A stretch of 64,000 nucleotides of DNA from a bacterium (GTDB taxonomy: Bacteria; Hinthialibacterota; Hinthialibacteria; OLB16). The translations under genes and the position numbers were made by a program. Under the pieces are notes generated by a model. The model had not been told where the DNA came from, did not search any database, and saw only the letters and a program-made list of their open reading frames with translations. The stretch is from NCBI GenBank assembly GCA_022072055.1, contig JAJVIK010000006.1, positions 1 through 64,000 of the forward strand, read 5' to 3'. Shown piece after piece: positions 14,802 through 24,597 of the stretch. Each line of letters begins with the position of its first letter. Position 1 is the first letter of the stretch.

Positions 14802-16229
14802 TCACGCCTCCTCGACCACCTCGAAGCCCATCAGCGCGCCCAGATCCTCCAGGCTCTTCCTGTGGTTGCCGTAGAACACCACCCGATGGAGCAGGGTCAT
14901 GACCCCTCCCTGGATCCGGTCCGCCCCCCAGTTCTGGAACATCTTGGCCGCGTCCGCCACCTCGGTCACAAACTGGGTTCGGCAACCGAGCGGATCATGC
15001 GTGACATCGATGATCTTCCCGGTTGAGACCAGCATGGTGTCGAGGTTGATCAGCTTCGCGCATGTCACCTCCTGACCGATTCGGTTTTCCACATCCAACG
15101 AGACCCCGCGCCCGCTGTCGCTCTGAGTCCGGATGGTGAATGGGAGACGTTCCCCCCCCGGGCCATCCATCCTGGTCGCGCAGGTGCAGTGGAAATGGAT
15201 CAGGGCGTTCCGCGCGGTGTCGAACACCGGGTCGGTGATGAACCCGGGTTTGGCGAAGGCATACTGGAACATGAGCATGGTTAGGGTCGAATCCATGTCC
15301 CCCTCGCAGGCCCCCACGAGCCCGAGATCGTTGAGTTTGCTGAAGGCCAGGCAACCCTTGGCCGGATCGGCCATGCAATTTGAACTCGTCACCGCCTGCG
15401 CCCGCTCGCGTTTCATGAGGTTGCGCAAGGCCAAATAGAACCGCGCGGCGTTGATGATCTCCTCGCGCGAGGGTTCGATGATCCGCTTGGCGTCCTTGAG
15501 CCAGTACTGCTCGGCCTCGGCTTCGGCCTCCTTGGGATCGACCGCGCGGTGCGCTTCGAGGGTCTCCTCCACGCTGATCGGGATCATCTCCGCACCCAAG
15601 CGCTCCTTGACCCGCGCGGAGTCGCAAGCGGCGGGGGTCCCTTGCGGACCGTGGACCACCAGAATTCGTGTTGCGCGCAGATGCGGGGCCACGCGCATGA
15701 GTCCCGCCACCCGATCCAGTTCGCTCCAATCGCTGGAGGGAAGCAGGACCACTCTTTTGCCCTCTTTTCGCCAAGCCGGGAAATACATCCAGCCATGCCC
15801 GCTGAACGGCTGCGAGAACACCGCCGTGGGGAGACCCACCTCGATGATCTGGTCCATCGCCTTCTTGGGGGCATCCCCACCGTGCCCTGAAAGATGGAAC
15901 AGGATCACCCCGTCGGCTTCCTTGAGCTTCGGGATGACCTCGGCGGCGTCCGTGGGAGGGACTGTCTCGCCCCCGACGAACTTCACATTTCCAACGCGTC
16001 CCTCCACCTCATCCAGATATGCGTTGAACTTGCCGATCTCCTCTGTGGGGCGGGAGAGGTAAATGTCGCCGGTTCTGCCGATGTAAACCTTGTGGATCTT
16101 GACCGGGGAAAGCTCCACCAGAGTTTCCGTCGGCGCGGATGGGGCGCTCGCGGCTCGAAACGCCTGCGCCACCAAGGCTCCCCCCGCGGCGGTTCCCAGA
16201 AACTCTCGTCGACTCAGCGCGCAACCCAT
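14802..16229 (-). CDS. Tat-exported protein resembling L-fucose/L-arabinose isomerase-type sugar isomerases
   Basis: 475 residues from the ATG at 16229, preceded by AAGGAGGGAATC; a start at 16265 would bury the signal. The N terminus LSRREFLGTAAGGALVAQAF is a twin-arginine signal, so the protein is exported folded. The N-terminal half looks like a Rossmann-type domain (KVYIGRTGDIYL, KEADGVILFHLSGHGGDAPK). The second half has NCMADPAKGCLAF, GACEGDMDSTLTMLMFQYAF and ALIHFHCTCATRMDGPG. These resemble the C-terminal domains of FucI/AraA-like isomerases, where Glu, Asp and His bind the metal. An exported sugar isomerase is unusual, so activity is uncertain. Similar signals occur on other proteins here (61727-62917), suggesting periplasmic sugar chemistry. 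Confidence 0.6.
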   Translation of the reverse strand: MGCALSRREFLGTAAGGALVAQAFRAASAPSAPTETLVELSPVKIHKVYIGRTGDIYLSRPTEEIGKFNAYLDEVEGRVGNVKFVGGETVPPTDAAEVIPKLKEADGVILFHLSGHGGDAPKKAMDQIIEVGLPTAVFSQPFSGHGWMYFPAWRKEGKRVVLLPSSDWSELDRVAGLMRVAPHLRATRILVVHGPQGTPAACDSARVKERLGAEMIPISVEETLEAHRAVDPKEAEAEAEQYWLKDAKRIIEPSREEIINAARFYLALRNLMKRERAQAVTSSNCMADPAKGCLAFSKLNDLGLVGACEGDMDSTLTMLMFQYAFAKPGFITDPVFDTARNALIHFHCTCATRMDGPGGERLPFTIRTQSDSGRGVSLDVENRIGQEVTCAKLINLDTMLVSTGKIIDVTHDPLGCRTQFVTEVADAAKMFQNWGADRIQGGVMTLLHRVVFYGNHRKSLEDLGALMGFEVVEEA

Positions 16230-16378
16230 GATTCCCTCCTTGTGGTTGGATTGGGCGGCGCACAAACAGGGGTATTATCGAACTTCCGATTCGGTTAATC
16301 CAGCTCGAGGCGGGACCCGGAGGGGAATCCACCCGCCTGTCACCGCCTCGCACGCCGTGACTTCCCGCTCCTCGTCGA

Positions 16379-16384
16379 TATACT
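16379..16384 (+). promoter_or_regulatory. -10 element of a probably leaderless promoter (solute-binding-protein operon)
   Basis: TATACT ends 6 nt before the ATG at 16391, with a weak -35 GTGACT at 16357-16362. Transcription would begin at or next to the start codon. There is no Shine-Dalgarno sequence between them. Confidence 0.5.
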
Positions 16385-16390
16385 CCCCCC

Positions 16391-17488
16391 ATGATCGTCT
16401 CACATCGCCTCGCGCTGCTTGGCGCTTGGATTCTGACGTTCACGCTTGTCGGCTGTGGCGGAGGTCCCCCGGCGCCGGAGGGAGGGCCCTCGGCCCAGAG
16501 CTCCACCACTTCTCATGGGCTGGAGAACAAGGTGGTGGTCTACTCCCCGCATGGCAAGGAGATCCTCGGGGAGTTCAAGGATCGTTTTGAACAGACCTAT
16601 CCGGGAACCACGGTCGATTTCCTCTATCTCCCCTCGCAACAGTGCCTGGAACGGGTCCGGAACGAGCGACAGTCCCCCCAGGCGGATGTTTGGTGGGGCG
16701 CGGGGCACACCGCCTTTATCCAAGCGGCGTCGGAAGGTCTGCTCGCAAGGTACCGCCCCACCTGGAGCGACCAGGTTTCCCATGCTTGCCGGGACTCCCT
16801 CGACCGCTGGTATGCCTCGTTCCTGTCCCCCGAAATCATTTTCTACAACCGTGACTTGGTCGAACCGAACGAGGCCCCGACCGACTGGGGGGACCTTGCG
16901 GATCCCAAGTGGGAAGGGCAGATTCTGCTTCGGTTCCCGATTCCCTCGGACACCATGCGAGCCATCTTTTTCGGGATAATTTCCAGGTCCCTCGCGGAGA
17001 CCGGGGGAGTGGAAAAGGCCTTTGAGTGGATGAAGGGCGTGGATGCCAACACCAAGGAATACGTTTCCGGAGGGGAGCTCCTATTCCGGAAGATGGCGCA
17101 GCGCCTGGGATCGCTGAGTGTCTGGACCCTTTCTGACATCATGCTCCAGAAGAGCCAGTACGATTATCCCTTTGAGGTGGTTTTCCCGAGGAGCGGCTCG
17201 CCGGTCATCCTGGACGGGATTGCCCTGGTGGCCGGTTCCCCTCACCCGAAAGCGGCGGCCGCTTACTATGAGTTCGTGACCTCGATCTCCAGCGCCGTTC
17301 GACTGGCCAGTCACCCCTACTACAGGATCTCAACCCGCCGCGATGTTCCGAGGGAATCCCTGCCGGAGTGGATGCGAAACCTGGAATATGAATCCCAGCC
17401 GCTCGATTGGGGGCTCTACATGGCCAAGATGAACGAGTGGATGCGTCGGTGGGATGAAGAGATCAAGGGCCAGGGAAAACGATCTTGA
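16391..17488 (+). CDS. Extracellular solute-binding lipoprotein, iron/polyamine-type ABC importer
   Basis: 365 residues. Signal and lipobox LTFTLVGC put Cys ~22 as the lipidated residue. The mature protein has the family 1/13 layout: KVVVYSPHGKEILGEFKDRF, QADVWWGAGHTAFIQAASEG, FYNRDLVEPNEAPTDWGDL, and a second-lobe segment LDGIALVAGSPHPKAAAAYY. That is the pattern of Fe(III)-, 2-aminoethylphosphonate- and thiamine-type binding proteins; the ligand cannot be told from sequence. The gene heads a tight operon, its stop overlapping the TTG start of a histidine kinase by 4 nt. No permease gene is present. A matching ATPase lies at 23458-24597 on the other strand. Confidence 0.88.
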   Translation: MIVSHRLALLGAWILTFTLVGCGGGPPAPEGGPSAQSSTTSHGLENKVVVYSPHGKEILGEFKDRFEQTYPGTTVDFLYLPSQQCLERVRNERQSPQADVWWGAGHTAFIQAASEGLLARYRPTWSDQVSHACRDSLDRWYASFLSPEIIFYNRDLVEPNEAPTDWGDLADPKWEGQILLRFPIPSDTMRAIFFGIISRSLAETGGVEKAFEWMKGVDANTKEYVSGGELLFRKMAQRLGSLSVWTLSDIMLQKSQYDYPFEVVFPRSGSPVILDGIALVAGSPHPKAAAAYYEFVTSISSAVRLASHPYYRISTRRDVPRESLPEWMRNLEYESQPLDWGLYMAKMNEWMRRWDEEIKGQGKRS

Positions 17489-18996
17489 CCGAATCCGGCC
17501 TTACACGCGCCCTGTTGTCCTCCTTGCGGGATGCCATCCTTGAGATGGATGAGCGGGGGAGCCTGCTCTGGGCCAACCCCACGGCCGAGCTGCTCCTCTC
17601 CGGTGGCGTGCCGCCGGCGGGACTGAGCCTGGCGAGCTTCGCGGCCAGACCCGAGGAAGGGGCCGAGCTGCTCGCCGATCTCGCGTGCGCGGGGAGCGGG
17701 GAGTTGGGATGCTCCCTCGAACTGATGGGAGCGAAGGGCCAGCCTTTTCCCTGTGACCTCCTGGTCTTCCGGGAGGAGGGTTGGAGGCATTTCCTGGCGG
17801 TTATCCGACCCCATTCGGGCGAGGGGGAGTCCAGCGCGCATCTCGCCGAGCAAATCCTCGATCTGACGCATCGCCTCGCCGCGGTCCAGAAGACAGTCAA
17901 CGATCTGAGCCTGGAGCTGATCGATAAGACTGTCCAACTGGCCGAGGAGCGCAATAAGACCGAGGCGGTGCTCGCCAGCATGGGCGAGGGGCTGGTGGTG
18001 GTGGAGCCTTCGGGTCGGATCTCCCAGATCAACTCCGCCGCCTGCCGGATTTTGGACACCACCCCCGAGCTGGCCGTTGGGAAGAGCTTGGGAGAGCCAT
18101 CCCTGGGGGCCAAGCTCAGCGCCCTCGCGGATTCGCTTCGCGCCTTTTCGGAAAGCCGCGCGTTGACCGACACCCCCATGGACCGCCTCACCGTTCAGGA
18201 AAAGGTGATCGAGCTTTCGCTGGCGTCGATCCAAGACCGGGAGGGCGGCGCCGAGAGTGTGGGCACGGTGGTCAATGTCCGCGATATCACTCGGCGGGCG
18301 GAGATCGACCGGATGAAGGAAGAGCTCATCTCGGTGGTGTCGCACGAACTCCGCGCCCCCCTGGCGAACGTGATCGGATACATCGACCTCTTGCTCAACG
18401 AGGCCGCCGCGTTTCTCTCAAAAGAACACCTGGACTTTGTCGCGGTGGCCCGCAAGAACGCCGAGCGGTTGATCCACCTGGTGGATGAGATGCTGGATCT
18501 CTCGCGCCTGGACGCGGGCGCCGTCCGCATGGACATCCAGCGTGTGGATATGGCGGGGATGATCGATTATGCCCTCACCTCGTTCCGCGCGGTGGCCGAA
18601 AGCCGTCGCCTGACCATTACCAGGCGGATCGAGGGGGAGGTCGCCGCCGCTGCGGATGTCGAGCGGCTCCAACAAGTCTTGCACAACCTGATCAGCAACG
18701 CGGTCAAGTACAGCCGGGATGGCGGCGAAGTGGTGATCGCCTGCCGAAGAGAGGGAAGGGAGGTGGTCATCACCGTGGCCGACAATGGAATCGGGATTCG
18801 GCCCGAGGATCAGGCGCGCCTGTTCCAGCGTTTCTTCCGCGTTCGCGGCGGGGAAACCCGTTCGATCAAGGGGACCGGACTGGGCCTTTCCATCGCCAAA
18901 TCCATTGTGGACTCGATGTCGGGTCGCCTGACTGTCACCAGCGAGTATGGGAAAGGGAGCGCGTTTTCGGTGATCTTGCCCGCATGGAGGGAGTGA
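17485..18996 (+). CDS. Soluble PAS-type sensor histidine kinase
   Basis: 503 residues, start TTG at 17485 overlapping the previous stop (TTGA). No membrane helix is visible, so the kinase is cytoplasmic. Order: PAS-like fold ~5-110 (ILEMDERGSLLWANPTAELL), coiled coil ~115-160, second PAS ~160-265 (LASMGEGLVVVEPSGRISQI), HisKA with SVVSHELRAPLANVIGY (phospho-acceptor His287), then HATPase with NLISNAVKYS, VADNGIGIRPEDQARLFQRF and GTGLGLSIAKSIVDSM. All ATP-lid motifs are intact. No response regulator is adjacent. Translational coupling to a solute-binding lipoprotein suggests they sense or respond to the same ligand, but a cytoplasmic kinase cannot contact that lipoprotein directly. Confidence 0.93.
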   Translation: MTESGLTRALLSSLRDAILEMDERGSLLWANPTAELLLSGGVPPAGLSLASFAARPEEGAELLADLACAGSGELGCSLELMGAKGQPFPCDLLVFREEGWRHFLAVIRPHSGEGESSAHLAEQILDLTHRLAAVQKTVNDLSLELIDKTVQLAEERNKTEAVLASMGEGLVVVEPSGRISQINSAACRILDTTPELAVGKSLGEPSLGAKLSALADSLRAFSESRALTDTPMDRLTVQEKVIELSLASIQDREGGAESVGTVVNVRDITRRAEIDRMKEELISVVSHELRAPLANVIGYIDLLLNEAAAFLSKEHLDFVAVARKNAERLIHLVDEMLDLSRLDAGAVRMDIQRVDMAGMIDYALTSFRAVAESRRLTITRRIEGEVAAAADVERLQQVLHNLISNAVKYSRDGGEVVIACRREGREVVITVADNGIGIRPEDQARLFQRFFRVRGGETRSIKGTGLGLSIAKSIVDSMSGRLTVTSEYGKGSAFSVILPAWRE

Positions 18997-19003
18997 GCGC
19001 GCC

Positions 19004-20164
19004 ATGTGCCTCACCCCGCCCATTCCGATCGCCTTCAGCGAGCCGCTGAGCTCGCCCCCGCGCCTGACTTACGCTCTCCTTGGGATCAACGGGGCGGTGT
19101 TCGTGTTCTTCCGAGTTCTCATCGTGGCGGGAATGTTGGGTTTTGTGTCCACCGAGCTCCCCGAGAAGATCGTGCACTGGGTGGGCTACATCGATTCCCG
19201 GCGCGACCCTTGGACCTATCTCACCGCATCCTTCTGCCATGTGGAATTCCTCCACCTCCTCGGCAACCTCCTGTTCCTGTGGATGTTCGGGAGCTATGTC
19301 GAGGACCGGCTTGGGTTGTGGCCCTATGGGTTTCTGGTCCTAGGCGGGGCGTTGTTCGGGTCCATTGGGCATTCGGTGAGCTTGGAAATGACCCACGCCG
19401 TTGCGGACATGCAGAAGCCCGCCATCGGCGCCTCGGACATCGTCGCCGCGATCTTGGGCGCCCACCTGATTCTCAACCCCGGACTCGAAACCAAGTTCTT
19501 TTCGGTCCTGATCTGGATCCCTTTTCGTGTCATCCCGCTTACTTGGTCCATGCCGGCCATCTTCTACATCCCCTGTTGGATCGCGATGGAGTCCTACAGC
19601 GCCTATTCCGTGGGGTCGAGCGCGGGGGTGGCGCACGCCGCCCATCTCGGAGGGGTCGCCTATGGGGTCGTCTTCGGCATTGCCTGTCGCCTCTTGCCGA
19701 AGACCGGTTGGGCGGCCAAGCGGAGGATTCGAGAGGAGGAGGAGCGAGCCCTCAGACTCGCCGAAACGGAGTATGCCAACTTCCAGGATGCCCTTTCGAA
19801 GGGGGCCGCGGAGTTCGCCCTCCATCTCTTTCGCCGCGAGGAGCGCGGGCAGCCTCCCCTCCCGGTCACCCCGACGGAGAAGTTGACCCTGGCGCATCAA
19901 CTTCGGGAGCGCGGAGAGCATTTCGTGGCGGCCAAGCTTTACCGGGAGATGCTGGCCGATGAGTCCAACCCGGAGTTCCGCCTTGAGGCCGGTCTGCGCC
20001 TCGCGGAAATCACCCTCGACCGCGAGCATGACATCGAGGGGGCCAAGCGCCTTCTCAGGGTGCTCCACCAAAGGTATAAAGCCCACCCCGGCTATCCCGA
20101 GGTGCACGCGCTGATTGAGCGAGTGAAACGGGCGGAAAGGAACCTGTTCAAACGGCCCTCATGA
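19004..20164 (+). CDS. Rhomboid-family intramembrane serine protease with helical C-terminal tail
   Basis: 386 residues, ATG 7 nt after the kinase stop. Residues ~20-235 form the rhomboid core. The loop/TM2 signature HVEFLHLLGNLLFLWMFGSY is followed by GASDIVAAILGAHL with the catalytic Ser, and VAHAAHLGGVAYG with the catalytic His. The residue after the Ser is Asp where most family members have Gly. About 150 cytoplasmic residues follow, rich in Arg/Glu/Leu with helix pairs (LAHQLRERGEHFVAAKLYREML, EAGLRLAEITLDREHDIEGA) that look like TPR units. Many bacterial rhomboids carry such tails. The substrate is unknown; the preceding lipoprotein and kinase are candidates by context only. Its stop overlaps the next start by ATGA. 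Confidence 0.85.
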   Translation: MCLTPPIPIAFSEPLSSPPRLTYALLGINGAVFVFFRVLIVAGMLGFVSTELPEKIVHWVGYIDSRRDPWTYLTASFCHVEFLHLLGNLLFLWMFGSYVEDRLGLWPYGFLVLGGALFGSIGHSVSLEMTHAVADMQKPAIGASDIVAAILGAHLILNPGLETKFFSVLIWIPFRVIPLTWSMPAIFYIPCWIAMESYSAYSVGSSAGVAHAAHLGGVAYGVVFGIACRLLPKTGWAAKRRIREEEERALRLAETEYANFQDALSKGAAEFALHLFRREERGQPPLPVTPTEKLTLAHQLRERGEHFVAAKLYREMLADESNPEFRLEAGLRLAEITLDREHDIEGAKRLLRVLHQRYKAHPGYPEVHALIERVKRAERNLFKRPS

Positions 20165-21294
20165 AGATTGTCTTTATCGGTCATTCCGGCATCCAGTACC
20201 CCCACACCCGAGTTCGGTGTTATGGCTTCGCCAAGGCCCTCAAGGAGCGGGGCTTCGACACGGAGGTCCTGTCGTTCAAGGACCACCTGGCTCCCCATCT
20301 CAAGGAAGAGGACATGTATGCCAAGCTCCGCGACCGCGACAAGATGCGCCTGGTCCTTTCCGCCGCGCGCCGATTGTTCGGCAAACGGGATGCCCTCTTC
20401 TATGTCCAGAAGGCGCATTTTCATTCGGCCGCGCCCTACCTGCTGTCGCGATTCTTCGGCGCCAGGTACATCCTGGATTATGATGATTACGATGTGCCCC
20501 TCTCCAATTTCTTCCATCGCGGTCGCTGGAACCGTCTGCTGTTCGGAACTCACCGCTGGGACGTCATCACCGAGCGTCTGGCCCGAAAGGCGGTCGGGTG
20601 CGTGGTCAGCAGCCATTACCTCGAGGAATACATGCGGCCCCTCAACCCGCGCGTGGCGCGCGTGGAAACCGGAGTGGACACAGGAGACTTTCACCCCCCG
20701 CGAACCGAGCATCCCGAGGATGCCCCCCTCACCTTCTTCTGGAACGGCATCGTTTGGGGGGATGAAATCCATCGTTCCGTGATGCTGGCGGTTCGGGCCT
20801 TCGCTCGCGTTCACCGCGAGGTCCCCAACAGTCGCCTGCTGCTGGTCGGCGGCGGCTTCCACTGGCAGCGGCTGGTGGAGTCCGCGCGGGCGGATCATGA
20901 CGATATCCCGATCGTTTTCCGGGGCTGGTTTCCACCCGAGGCGATGCCGAGTCTGTTCCGCGAGGCGGATGTGGGGCTGCTTCCCTTCGCGCTCGACAAC
21001 GAGTGGGTGCGCGGAAAGTCCCCCACCAAACTGTTCGAGTATCTGGCGACCGGGCTTCCCGTGGTGGCCACCGCCGTCGGCGAGGTCCGCCATGTCCTCC
21101 GGCACGGAGAGAACGGGCTTCTGTCGGAAAGCGAGGACCAGATGGTCGAGGGAATGCTCCGCTTGGCGCGTGACCGGGATTTCCGCGGGCAAGTGGGGAG
21201 GAACGCGCGGGAGACCGCGATCACCCACTACAGCCAGGAGGTCCTGGGAGACCGCTTGGCGGAGTTCCTGAAGCAGTTCGAGAGACGGTTGTGA
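20161..21294 (+). CDS. Family 4 glycosyltransferase (GT-B)
   Basis: 377 residues, ATG overlapping the rhomboid stop. N-terminal acceptor domain: MKIVFIGHSGIQYPHTRVR, then ARYILDYDDYDVPLSNFFHR. C-terminal donor domain: NGIVWGDEIHRSVMLAVRAF, RLLLVGGGFHWQRLV, and the nucleotide-sugar binding segment SPTKLFEYLATGLPVVATAV. The usual EX7E motif is represented by SPTKLFEYL. It likely transfers a sugar to an envelope glycan or lipid at the inner membrane. As the last gene of the 16391-21294 operon it stops directly against the stop codon of the convergent gene, with no room for a separate terminator. Confidence 0.88.
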   Translation: MKIVFIGHSGIQYPHTRVRCYGFAKALKERGFDTEVLSFKDHLAPHLKEEDMYAKLRDRDKMRLVLSAARRLFGKRDALFYVQKAHFHSAAPYLLSRFFGARYILDYDDYDVPLSNFFHRGRWNRLLFGTHRWDVITERLARKAVGCVVSSHYLEEYMRPLNPRVARVETGVDTGDFHPPRTEHPEDAPLTFFWNGIVWGDEIHRSVMLAVRAFARVHREVPNSRLLLVGGGFHWQRLVESARADHDDIPIVFRGWFPPEAMPSLFREADVGLLPFALDNEWVRGKSPTKLFEYLATGLPVVATAVGEVRHVLRHGENGLLSESEDQMVEGMLRLARDRDFRGQVGRNARETAITHYSQEVLGDRLAEFLKQFERRL

Positions 21295-23036: not shown

Positions 23037-23054
23037 CGAAAGGTGGGTGAGGCA

Positions 23055-23522
23055 ATGACCCCGATGGCGGAGGCAATCCATCAGATATCCATCTTCCACG
23101 ATCTCTCGGAGGATGAGGCGAGTCGCGTGGCCGCGGTCTGCGGCGAGCGGACCTACCACGAAGGCGAGATCATCTTCGTGGAACACACCGAAGGGAATGA
23201 ACTCTTCTTGATTCTGGAGGGGGAGGTCAGCATTCAACTGGAGCTCACCAATCAGGATGATGTCATGCCGCTGGTCACCCTCGGCCCCGGGGATGTCTTC
23301 GGGGAGCTTTCGGTGGTGGACGAAGCCCCGCGATCCGCCACCGCGCGGTGTGTCCGAAACGCAAGCGTGCTGGTGCTCGCGAAAGAGGACTTCGACCGCT
23401 TGATCGAGTCGGACCACGACCTCGGACTCAAGGTCATGCGCAATGTGGCCCAGCTTGTCAGCCGCCGTGTCCGCCAAGCCAACCAGAAGATTCTGGATAA
23501 TGTGAGCTGGGGGATGATTTAG
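23055..23522 (+). CDS. Stand-alone cyclic-nucleotide-binding (cNMP/CAP_ED) domain protein
   Basis: 155 residues, ATG 23055 behind GTGGGTGAGG. The whole protein is one cupin-like cNMP domain: IFHDLSEDEASRVAAVCGER, EGEIIFVEHTEGNELFLIL, GEVSI, LGPGDVFGELSVVDEAPRSA (the phosphate-binding cassette GELSxxxxxPRSA) and a C-terminal helix ending NVAQLVSRRVRQANQ. There is no DNA-binding or kinase domain, so it is a sensor or regulatory subunit of unknown partner. The last 65 nt overlap the 3' end of the convergent ABC ATPase gene. Confidence 0.87.
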   Translation: MTPMAEAIHQISIFHDLSEDEASRVAAVCGERTYHEGEIIFVEHTEGNELFLILEGEVSIQLELTNQDDVMPLVTLGPGDVFGELSVVDEAPRSATARCVRNASVLVLAKEDFDRLIESDHDLGLKVMRNVAQLVSRRVRQANQKILDNVSWGMI

Positions 23523-24597
23523 AGGGGACTCCCAACAGGACCACATCCTCGTGGGCCACTGTCCATTCCAGAGTCTCACCCTCCCGATGCGGAGCATGCG
23601 TTTCCAGGACACGGAGAGTCGGTCCGGCTCCCTCCGCCGCGATTTCGACCCGATGCTGGGTCACTTCGCCCAGATAGATTGATGAACTCACCCGCCCCCG
23701 GAAGCGGTTGACCGCGCCATCCGGGGCGCCTCCCACGCGCGCCGCTTCCGGCCTTACCCCGCACAGCACCCGCTGCCCCGCTTGGAGGGACTCCCCGGAG
23801 CGCCCTTTCCAAACCAGGTCCGCGCCATCGAGACGAACCTGACAGAAGCAGTCCGTTTCGATCTCAAGCACCGTGGCGGGGAAGAGATTCATGTCGCCCA
23901 GAAACTCCGCCACGAAACAATTGCCCGGCCTTTCGTAGAGCTCGCGCGGGGTTCCAACCTGCTCGATCCGACCCTCGCGCAGAATCGCGCAGCGGTCCGC
24001 CATCGCGAGCGCCTCGTTCCGGTCATGGGTGACATACACCGCGGTGTGGTCGCCGCGCTTGATGATCTCGCGGATTTCCGTCCGCATTTCCTGACGCAGC
24101 CGTGCATCCAGGTTGGAAAGCGGCTCATCAAGCAGAACCAACGCGGGGCGCACCACCAGCGCGCGCGCCAGCGCCACCCGCTGCTGCTGCCCCCCGGAAA
24201 GCTGCGCGGGACGGCGCTCGCCGTGGTCCTCCATCCGCGCCATCGCAAGCGCCTCGCGGACCCGCCGCGCCCGCTCGCCCTTCGCGATTCCCTGAGCCTC
24301 CAGCCCGAAGGCGACATTCTCGAACACGGAAAGGTGAGGCCAGAGGGCGTAATTCTGGAACACCATCCCCGTGCTCCTTTTTTCGGGCGGAGTCCCGGAG
24401 ACATTCCGACCATCGAAGCAAATCTCCCCCTCATCCGGGTCCTCGAACCCCGCGAGCATCCGCAGAAGCGTGGTTTTTCCGCACCCGGAGGGTCCCAGCA
24501 GGAAGAAGAACTCCCCCTCCTCCACAGCCAGGGTGACCCCATCCACCGCGACCACCGGACCGAAGCGCTTGGATACGCGCAGCAGGTCAATCCGCAT
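23458..24597 (-). CDS. ABC importer ATPase, Fe/spermidine/sugar class (PotA/UgpC/FbpC-like)
   Basis: 379 residues from the ATG at 24597, which overlaps the stop of the upstream channel gene by 11 nt. The nucleotide-binding domain has Walker A LLGPSGCGKTTLLRM (~32-46), Q-loop MVFQNYALWPHLSV, signature LSGGQQQRVALARAL, Walker B VLLDEPLSNLD and H-loop VYVTHDRNEAL. A TOBE-type beta-domain follows from ~245 (VRLDGADLVWKGRSGESLQ). It should energise uptake of a small solute at the inner membrane. No permease gene lies in the window; the solute-binding lipoprotein at 16391 is a plausible partner but is 6 kb away on the other strand. The final residues, SKSSPSSHYPESSGWLGGHG, are encoded antisense to the neighbouring gene and lie beyond the TOBE fold. 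Confidence 0.92.
   Translation of the reverse strand: MRIDLLRVSKRFGPVVAVDGVTLAVEEGEFFFLLGPSGCGKTTLLRMLAGFEDPDEGEICFDGRNVSGTPPEKRSTGMVFQNYALWPHLSVFENVAFGLEAQGIAKGERARRVREALAMARMEDHGERRPAQLSGGQQQRVALARALVVRPALVLLDEPLSNLDARLRQEMRTEIREIIKRGDHTAVYVTHDRNEALAMADRCAILREGRIEQVGTPRELYERPGNCFVAEFLGDMNLFPATVLEIETDCFCQVRLDGADLVWKGRSGESLQAGQRVLCGVRPEAARVGGAPDGAVNRFRGRVSSSIYLGEVTQHRVEIAAEGAGPTLRVLETHAPHREGETLEWTVAHEDVVLLGVPSKSSPSSHYPESSGWLGGHGG

Follow-up and report, generated by a model that had tools for sequence, protein, structure and literature searches.

A four-gene operon of one Hinthialibacteria family joins a solute-binding lipoprotein to a soluble PAS histidine kinase

The window analysed here is a 64-kb stretch of a genome of the OLB16/Hinthialibacteria lineage. 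Four tightly packed open reading frames, all on the plus strand, occupy positions 16391-21294. The first, at 16391-17488 (365 aa, ATG start), encodes a solute-binding lipoprotein (SBP) of the SBP_bac_6 type, in the iron/2-aminoethylphosphonate/polyamine-type cluster. It is followed by a soluble PAS histidine kinase (HK) at 17485-18996 (503 aa, TTG start), a rhomboid protease with a TPR-like tail at 19004-20164 (386 aa, ATG start), and a GT4 glycosyltransferase of the family with the conserved motif PHTRVRCYGFA at 20161-21294 (377 aa, ATG start). The SBP and HK genes overlap by 4 nt (TTGA, 17485-17488), the HK and rhomboid genes are separated by 7 nt (18997-19003), and the rhomboid and GT4 genes again overlap by 4 nt (20161-20164). 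The coordinates of the reading frames therefore bear out the original prediction of four genes joined by 4-nt overlaps or a 7-nt gap. A weak promoter-like site (9 of 12) lies before the SBP gene at 16357-16384 on the plus strand; the background is about one such site per region, and the site is not evidence of function. The scan revealed no convincing terminator inside the operon, the terminator and promoter scans both being at or below background. The protein encoded on the minus strand at 14802-16265 has no Pfam match; it carries a twin-arginine-like signal (SRREFLG) and shows weak similarity to the sulfoquinovose isomerase SftI (1.6e-7), far below the cut-off.

The SBP is matched by Pfam SBP_bac_6 (1.9e-18) and, below the cut-off, by NCBIfam phnS2, and its PDB relatives are Fe3+/PLP/iron-binding SBPs. 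Both the fold and the lipoprotein signal of an ABC importer SBP (SBP_bac_6/8) are present, the lipobox reading LVGC in the window and AAGC and VSGC in two relatives from the family. The kinase is composed of a PAS-like N-terminal region of about 110 aa, one Pfam PAS domain (2.5e-9), a coiled coil, HisKA (6e-16) and HATPase_c (5e-31); NCBIfam PnpS and PhoR are among its best matches, below the cut-off. Its H box (SHELRAPL) and its N and G boxes (NLISNAVKYS, DNGIGI, GTGLGLS) are intact. No segment of TM-like hydropathy was seen in the window HK (maximum 1.39), nor in its orthologues in the class, apart from one stretch of the PAS core reaching 1.69 in the second genus of the family. A cytoplasmic kinase lacking a response regulator had been proposed, and this description stands: neither a response regulator or receiver domain nor a second kinase was found among the reading frames of the window.

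The rhomboid protein is matched by Pfam Rhomboid (1.1e-23). Residues H79, H84, N88, G142, S144 and H214 are invariant in the alignments, and the motifs HxxxxHxxxN, GAS (GAS144) and the C-terminal AHxxHxGG are kept, the GAS motif extending to GASD in the window and the second genus and to GASG in the third. Judged from these alignments, the protein has the features of a predicted active rhomboid, namely the fold, the GxS serine, the catalytic histidine and HxxxxHxxxN in TM2. Residues 235-382 are predicted to form a helical, TPR-like tail, with an AlphaFold pLDDT of mostly 85-94. Foldseek matches for the model are to GlpG and to TPR; the membrane part of this model is weak, only two sequences being alignable. 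The last protein is matched by Glyco_trans_1_4 (2e-19).

For comparison, 2 other genomes of the same family and 11 further genomes of the class were available. Identical order, SBP-HK-rhomboid-GT, is seen in a second genus (G001; L078 8986-13850), the nearest named relative with the operon (OLB16 contig LMZT01000011, Candidatus Hinthialibacteria). There the spacings are 2, 7 and 11 nt, and identities to the window proteins are 62% for SBP, 53% for HK, 42% for rhomboid and 67% for GT. In the third genus (G002; L080), HK-rhomboid-GT is kept with a 9-nt gap and then a 4-nt overlap; the contig ahead of the kinase is too short for the SBP gene, and the apparent start of a divergent secreted gene is located there. 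The SBP gene of this genome (64% identity) is on a separate contig, flanked by a convergent gene for serine hydroxymethyltransferase and a divergent one for ferritin. JAJDBZ010000658, which was submitted under the name Candidatus Omnitrophota, matches the other family member. Close spacing retained in genera so diverged is not chance. Beyond the family, neither the SBP search of 61 genomes plus genome contigs nor the GT, kinase and rhomboid searches of 386 genomes each revealed the four genes in order. On the sample at hand, the four-gene operon is a trait of the family. The order that the original prediction proposed to look for in other genomes thus recurs in related genera and was not seen beyond them, and co-occurrence of the four genes largely ends at close relatives, which that prediction had itself named as evidence against it.

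Outside the family, GT, rhomboid and SBP each occur in other contexts. GT4 orthologues exist in most genomes of the class and in several other phyla; among class genomes outside the family the gene was found in 10 of 11, with identities near 50%; in one of the ten, G005, it is broken into two parts. In a second family of the class (f2) it usually has a gene for a protein of about 1000 aa upstream and one for a protein of about 670 aa downstream, the larger of which is O-antigen-ligase-like in G011 (Wzy_C plus TPR by Pfam). In other phyla (L145, L146, L147), members of this GT4 family appear as tandem pairs in clusters of further glycosyltransferase-like genes. No rhomboid orthologue exists in the 11 class genomes outside the family, where the best matches are generic rhomboid domains; outside the family no HK locus contains the gene, and at the retrieved loci of its best relatives in other phyla no kinase was located within 1.5 kb. 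Clear SBP relatives (34-45%) are present in 4 of the 11, in other gene contexts.

The distribution of the kinase is wider, an orthologous soluble HK being held by 11 of the 14 class genomes. A profile built from the three family HKs alone recovered orthologues of nearly full length from eight genomes of the class (E 1e-99 to 1e-118), and other kinases of the same clade gave partial matches (E 1e-27 to 1e-70). With a profile of all eleven HKs, scores were 630-753 bits for the orthologues against 286 for the next kinase, a second figure inflated by construction. Outside the class, mostly the PAS-HisKA-HATPase core alone was matched, at no more than 333 bits. These sequence comparisons indicate a kinase older than the four-gene operon.

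In two of the three genera of the family, SBP lies beside HK. A comparable neighbor was found in the second family, where five genomes (G003, G006, G007, G009, G011) carry a conserved secreted protein of about 300 aa, with 27-44% mutual identity, directly upstream of HK. This secreted family (L206, L207, L208, L211, L212, L227) stands ahead of the orthologous soluble HK in 5 of 6 genomes; in the sixth (G010) the secreted protein is kept and the kinase lost, a FlgN-like gene and a PAS-kinase/response regulator pair being found there. Neither Pfam nor PDB gave a direct match for the secreted protein. Its profile is matched by distant relatives in G004 and G008 (E 4e-11 and 4e-14), which also match the phosphonate-binding proteins of PF12974 (E 1e-15 and 1e-9); through these intermediates, the secreted protein is likely a PF12974-related type II binding protein. 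Homology with the window SBP was not seen (hhalign probability 1%). In G004 (L230 5897-8074), a PF12974-type binding protein gene precedes by 3 bp an HK with two membrane spans, which is a conventional arrangement.

Roughly one percent of genes encode binding proteins, so chance does not readily explain why an orthologous soluble HK stands beside two unrelated secreted binding proteins, one in each of two families. This recurrence argues for coupling of binding protein and kinase, probably by way of an ABC importer or of the ligand it takes up. The HKs of G005, G008 and G013 have no binding-protein neighbor, and the pairing is therefore not obligatory. Pairs of the second family are often near flagellin or FlgN genes, and this adjacency may reflect another regulon. 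Beyond the pair, neighbors mostly differ between genera of that family, two of which share a downstream flagellin. The predicted link of an extracytoplasmic binding protein to a soluble kinase is thus upheld, in two of three genera of the family and, with a different binding protein, in five second-family genomes; past close relatives, co-occurrence holds for this kind of pair and fails for the four-gene set.

No transporter gene lies within the operon. SBP homologues elsewhere adjoin ABC genes: SBP-ATPase-permease in Planctomycetota (L068), SBP-ATPase in Latescibacterota (L067), and SBP followed by a permease in Thermoactinomyces (L066). At two of these loci, Thermoactinomyces L066 7127-11038 and Planctomycetota L068 1127-3190, PIG-L deacetylase-family genes adjoin the SBP homologue, a hint at ligand chemistry. 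A candidate permease of the window genome, chosen by similarity only, is encoded outside the operon at G000:C17:66310-68094. The best permease counterparts in all three family genomes are 60-64% identical to one another and about 42% to that of L066, and each lies directly 3' of a soluble PAS-GGDEF gene, overlapping it by 4-22 nt; the PAS-GGDEF call was made by Pfam in G000 and G002 and from a blastp homologue in G001. These pairs (G000:C17:65399-68094, or L164 5399-8094; G001 L165 3307-5981; G002 L166 171-2881) constitute, in three genera, a candidate transporter/second-messenger pair of a two-domain ABC permease and a diguanylate cyclase. With SBP and the PAS kinase, importer parts adjoin cytoplasmic PAS sensors twice.

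A candidate ATPase for the orphan SBP is encoded at 23458-24594, 2.2 kb past the operon: a lone ABC ATPase with a TOBE domain by Pfam and no permease adjoining. It is 55% identical to the ATPase whose gene immediately follows that of the SBP homologue in L067. As a unique partner it was rejected, other ATPases of the genome being about equally similar to the Planctomycetota partner. Within 23043-24594, the 3' ends of this gene (minus strand) and of a plus-strand gene encoding a stand-alone cyclic-nucleotide-binding domain overlap by about 65 nt.

Given the SBP relatives with ABC genes and the permease after PAS-GGDEF, the simplest mechanism would be importer-coupled sensing. The lipoprotein would capture a solute outside the cell and most likely feed an ABC importer; the gene for its permease, and perhaps that for its ATPase, would lie elsewhere. 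The cytoplasmic HK would read the imported ligand or the state of the importer through its PAS region and phosphorylate a response regulator encoded at another locus. The remaining two proteins, the rhomboid with its cytosolic TPR-like tail and GT4, would be co-transcribed envelope functions, likelier as outputs or passengers than as a signal relay. The sequences show the gene order, its conservation, the domain content, the lack of membrane spans in HK and the repeated pairing of this kinase with secreted binding proteins from two families; transport, which way the signal runs and what rhomboid and GT do are inferred. On this reading, the four genes would be a family-level operon put together from separately evolving genes around a class-wide soluble PAS HK, and for the scheme as a whole the chances appear about even.

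It is also possible, with a clearly smaller though substantial probability, that this is an ordinary operon of functionally unrelated genes, clustered in one lineage behind a shared promoter and not connected in a pathway. Confinement of the order to one family, the unlinked SBP in G002, the O-antigen-ligase-like TPR neighbor of GT in another family and the lack of a kinase beside rhomboids elsewhere all agree with this; however, the close spacing has been retained across genera at 37-67% protein identity, and the pairing of HK with a binding protein recurs in another family with a second, unrelated one. The original prediction went further and had rhomboid cleavage relay the outside signal, ligand binding leading to cleavage of a membrane substrate and then to kinase activation. 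For such a relay one may cite HK-rhomboid-GT in three genera, intact catalytic residues and a TPR-like cytoplasmic tail that could recruit a partner. It nevertheless appears very unlikely, as the operon encodes no transmembrane substrate: kinase and GT are without a membrane span, and SBP has only its lipoprotein signal peptide. Kinase loci outside the family, where the pairing persists, also lack the rhomboid.

The rhomboid, co-regulated with SBP and GT, might instead regulate the importer or the envelope glycan machinery, or control their quality. The precedent of YqgP (PMC7231995), the importer component in the operon and a tail suited to adaptor function speak for such a role, which is still improbable, as the importer permease lies outside the operon and no substrate came to light. 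Equally doubtful is a class-wide module in which interchangeable, unrelated secreted binding proteins control the PAS HK through importer status and the TPR-tailed rhomboid of one family, as membrane partner, connects the outside to the soluble HK. Returning to importer-coupled sensing, if the pairing reflects function, a cell would sense the outside with a kinase lacking a membrane sensor, and control of a kinase through an importer could be put to the test in an uncultured phylum. Overall, the operon is real at the level of the family, and one of its links, that of binding protein and HK, is of wider interest.

A search of an open-access literature library turned up no operon of a rhomboid plus a histidine kinase. 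Importer-coupled sensing is represented by PstS/PstSCAB-PhoR, in which a membrane-anchored kinase, PhoR, reads importer status. The window operon shares with it the PhoR/PnpS-like kinase core and the binding protein outside, but its HK is soluble, its importer is not co-encoded and no PhoU is in the operon. NtrB, a soluble PAS kinase that adjoins NtrC and senses PII, has the same cytoplasmic PAS-HisKA-HATPase arrangement, whereas the window HK has no adjoining response regulator and has a binding protein upstream. YqgP of Bacillus subtilis is a rhomboid regulating the Mg transporter MgtE with FtsH; as in the window, a rhomboid with an extramembrane part is linked to a transporter, although the operon gives no FtsH or MgtE evidence. 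In our analysis, this transporter-regulating rhomboid would be a better precedent than a relay. In the three-component system CuaDSR of Ruminiclostridium cellulolyticum, an SBP acts with a membrane HK and a response regulator (PMC10384115). Here also a lipoprotein SBP gene adjoins the HK gene (4-nt overlap in the window, 2-nt gap in G001); in contrast to CuaDSR, the window HK is without TM spans or an extracytoplasmic sensor domain and so cannot touch SBP directly, and rhomboid and GT take the place of the response regulator. The window operon may therefore work somewhat like a three-component system, yet it is not a member of that group.
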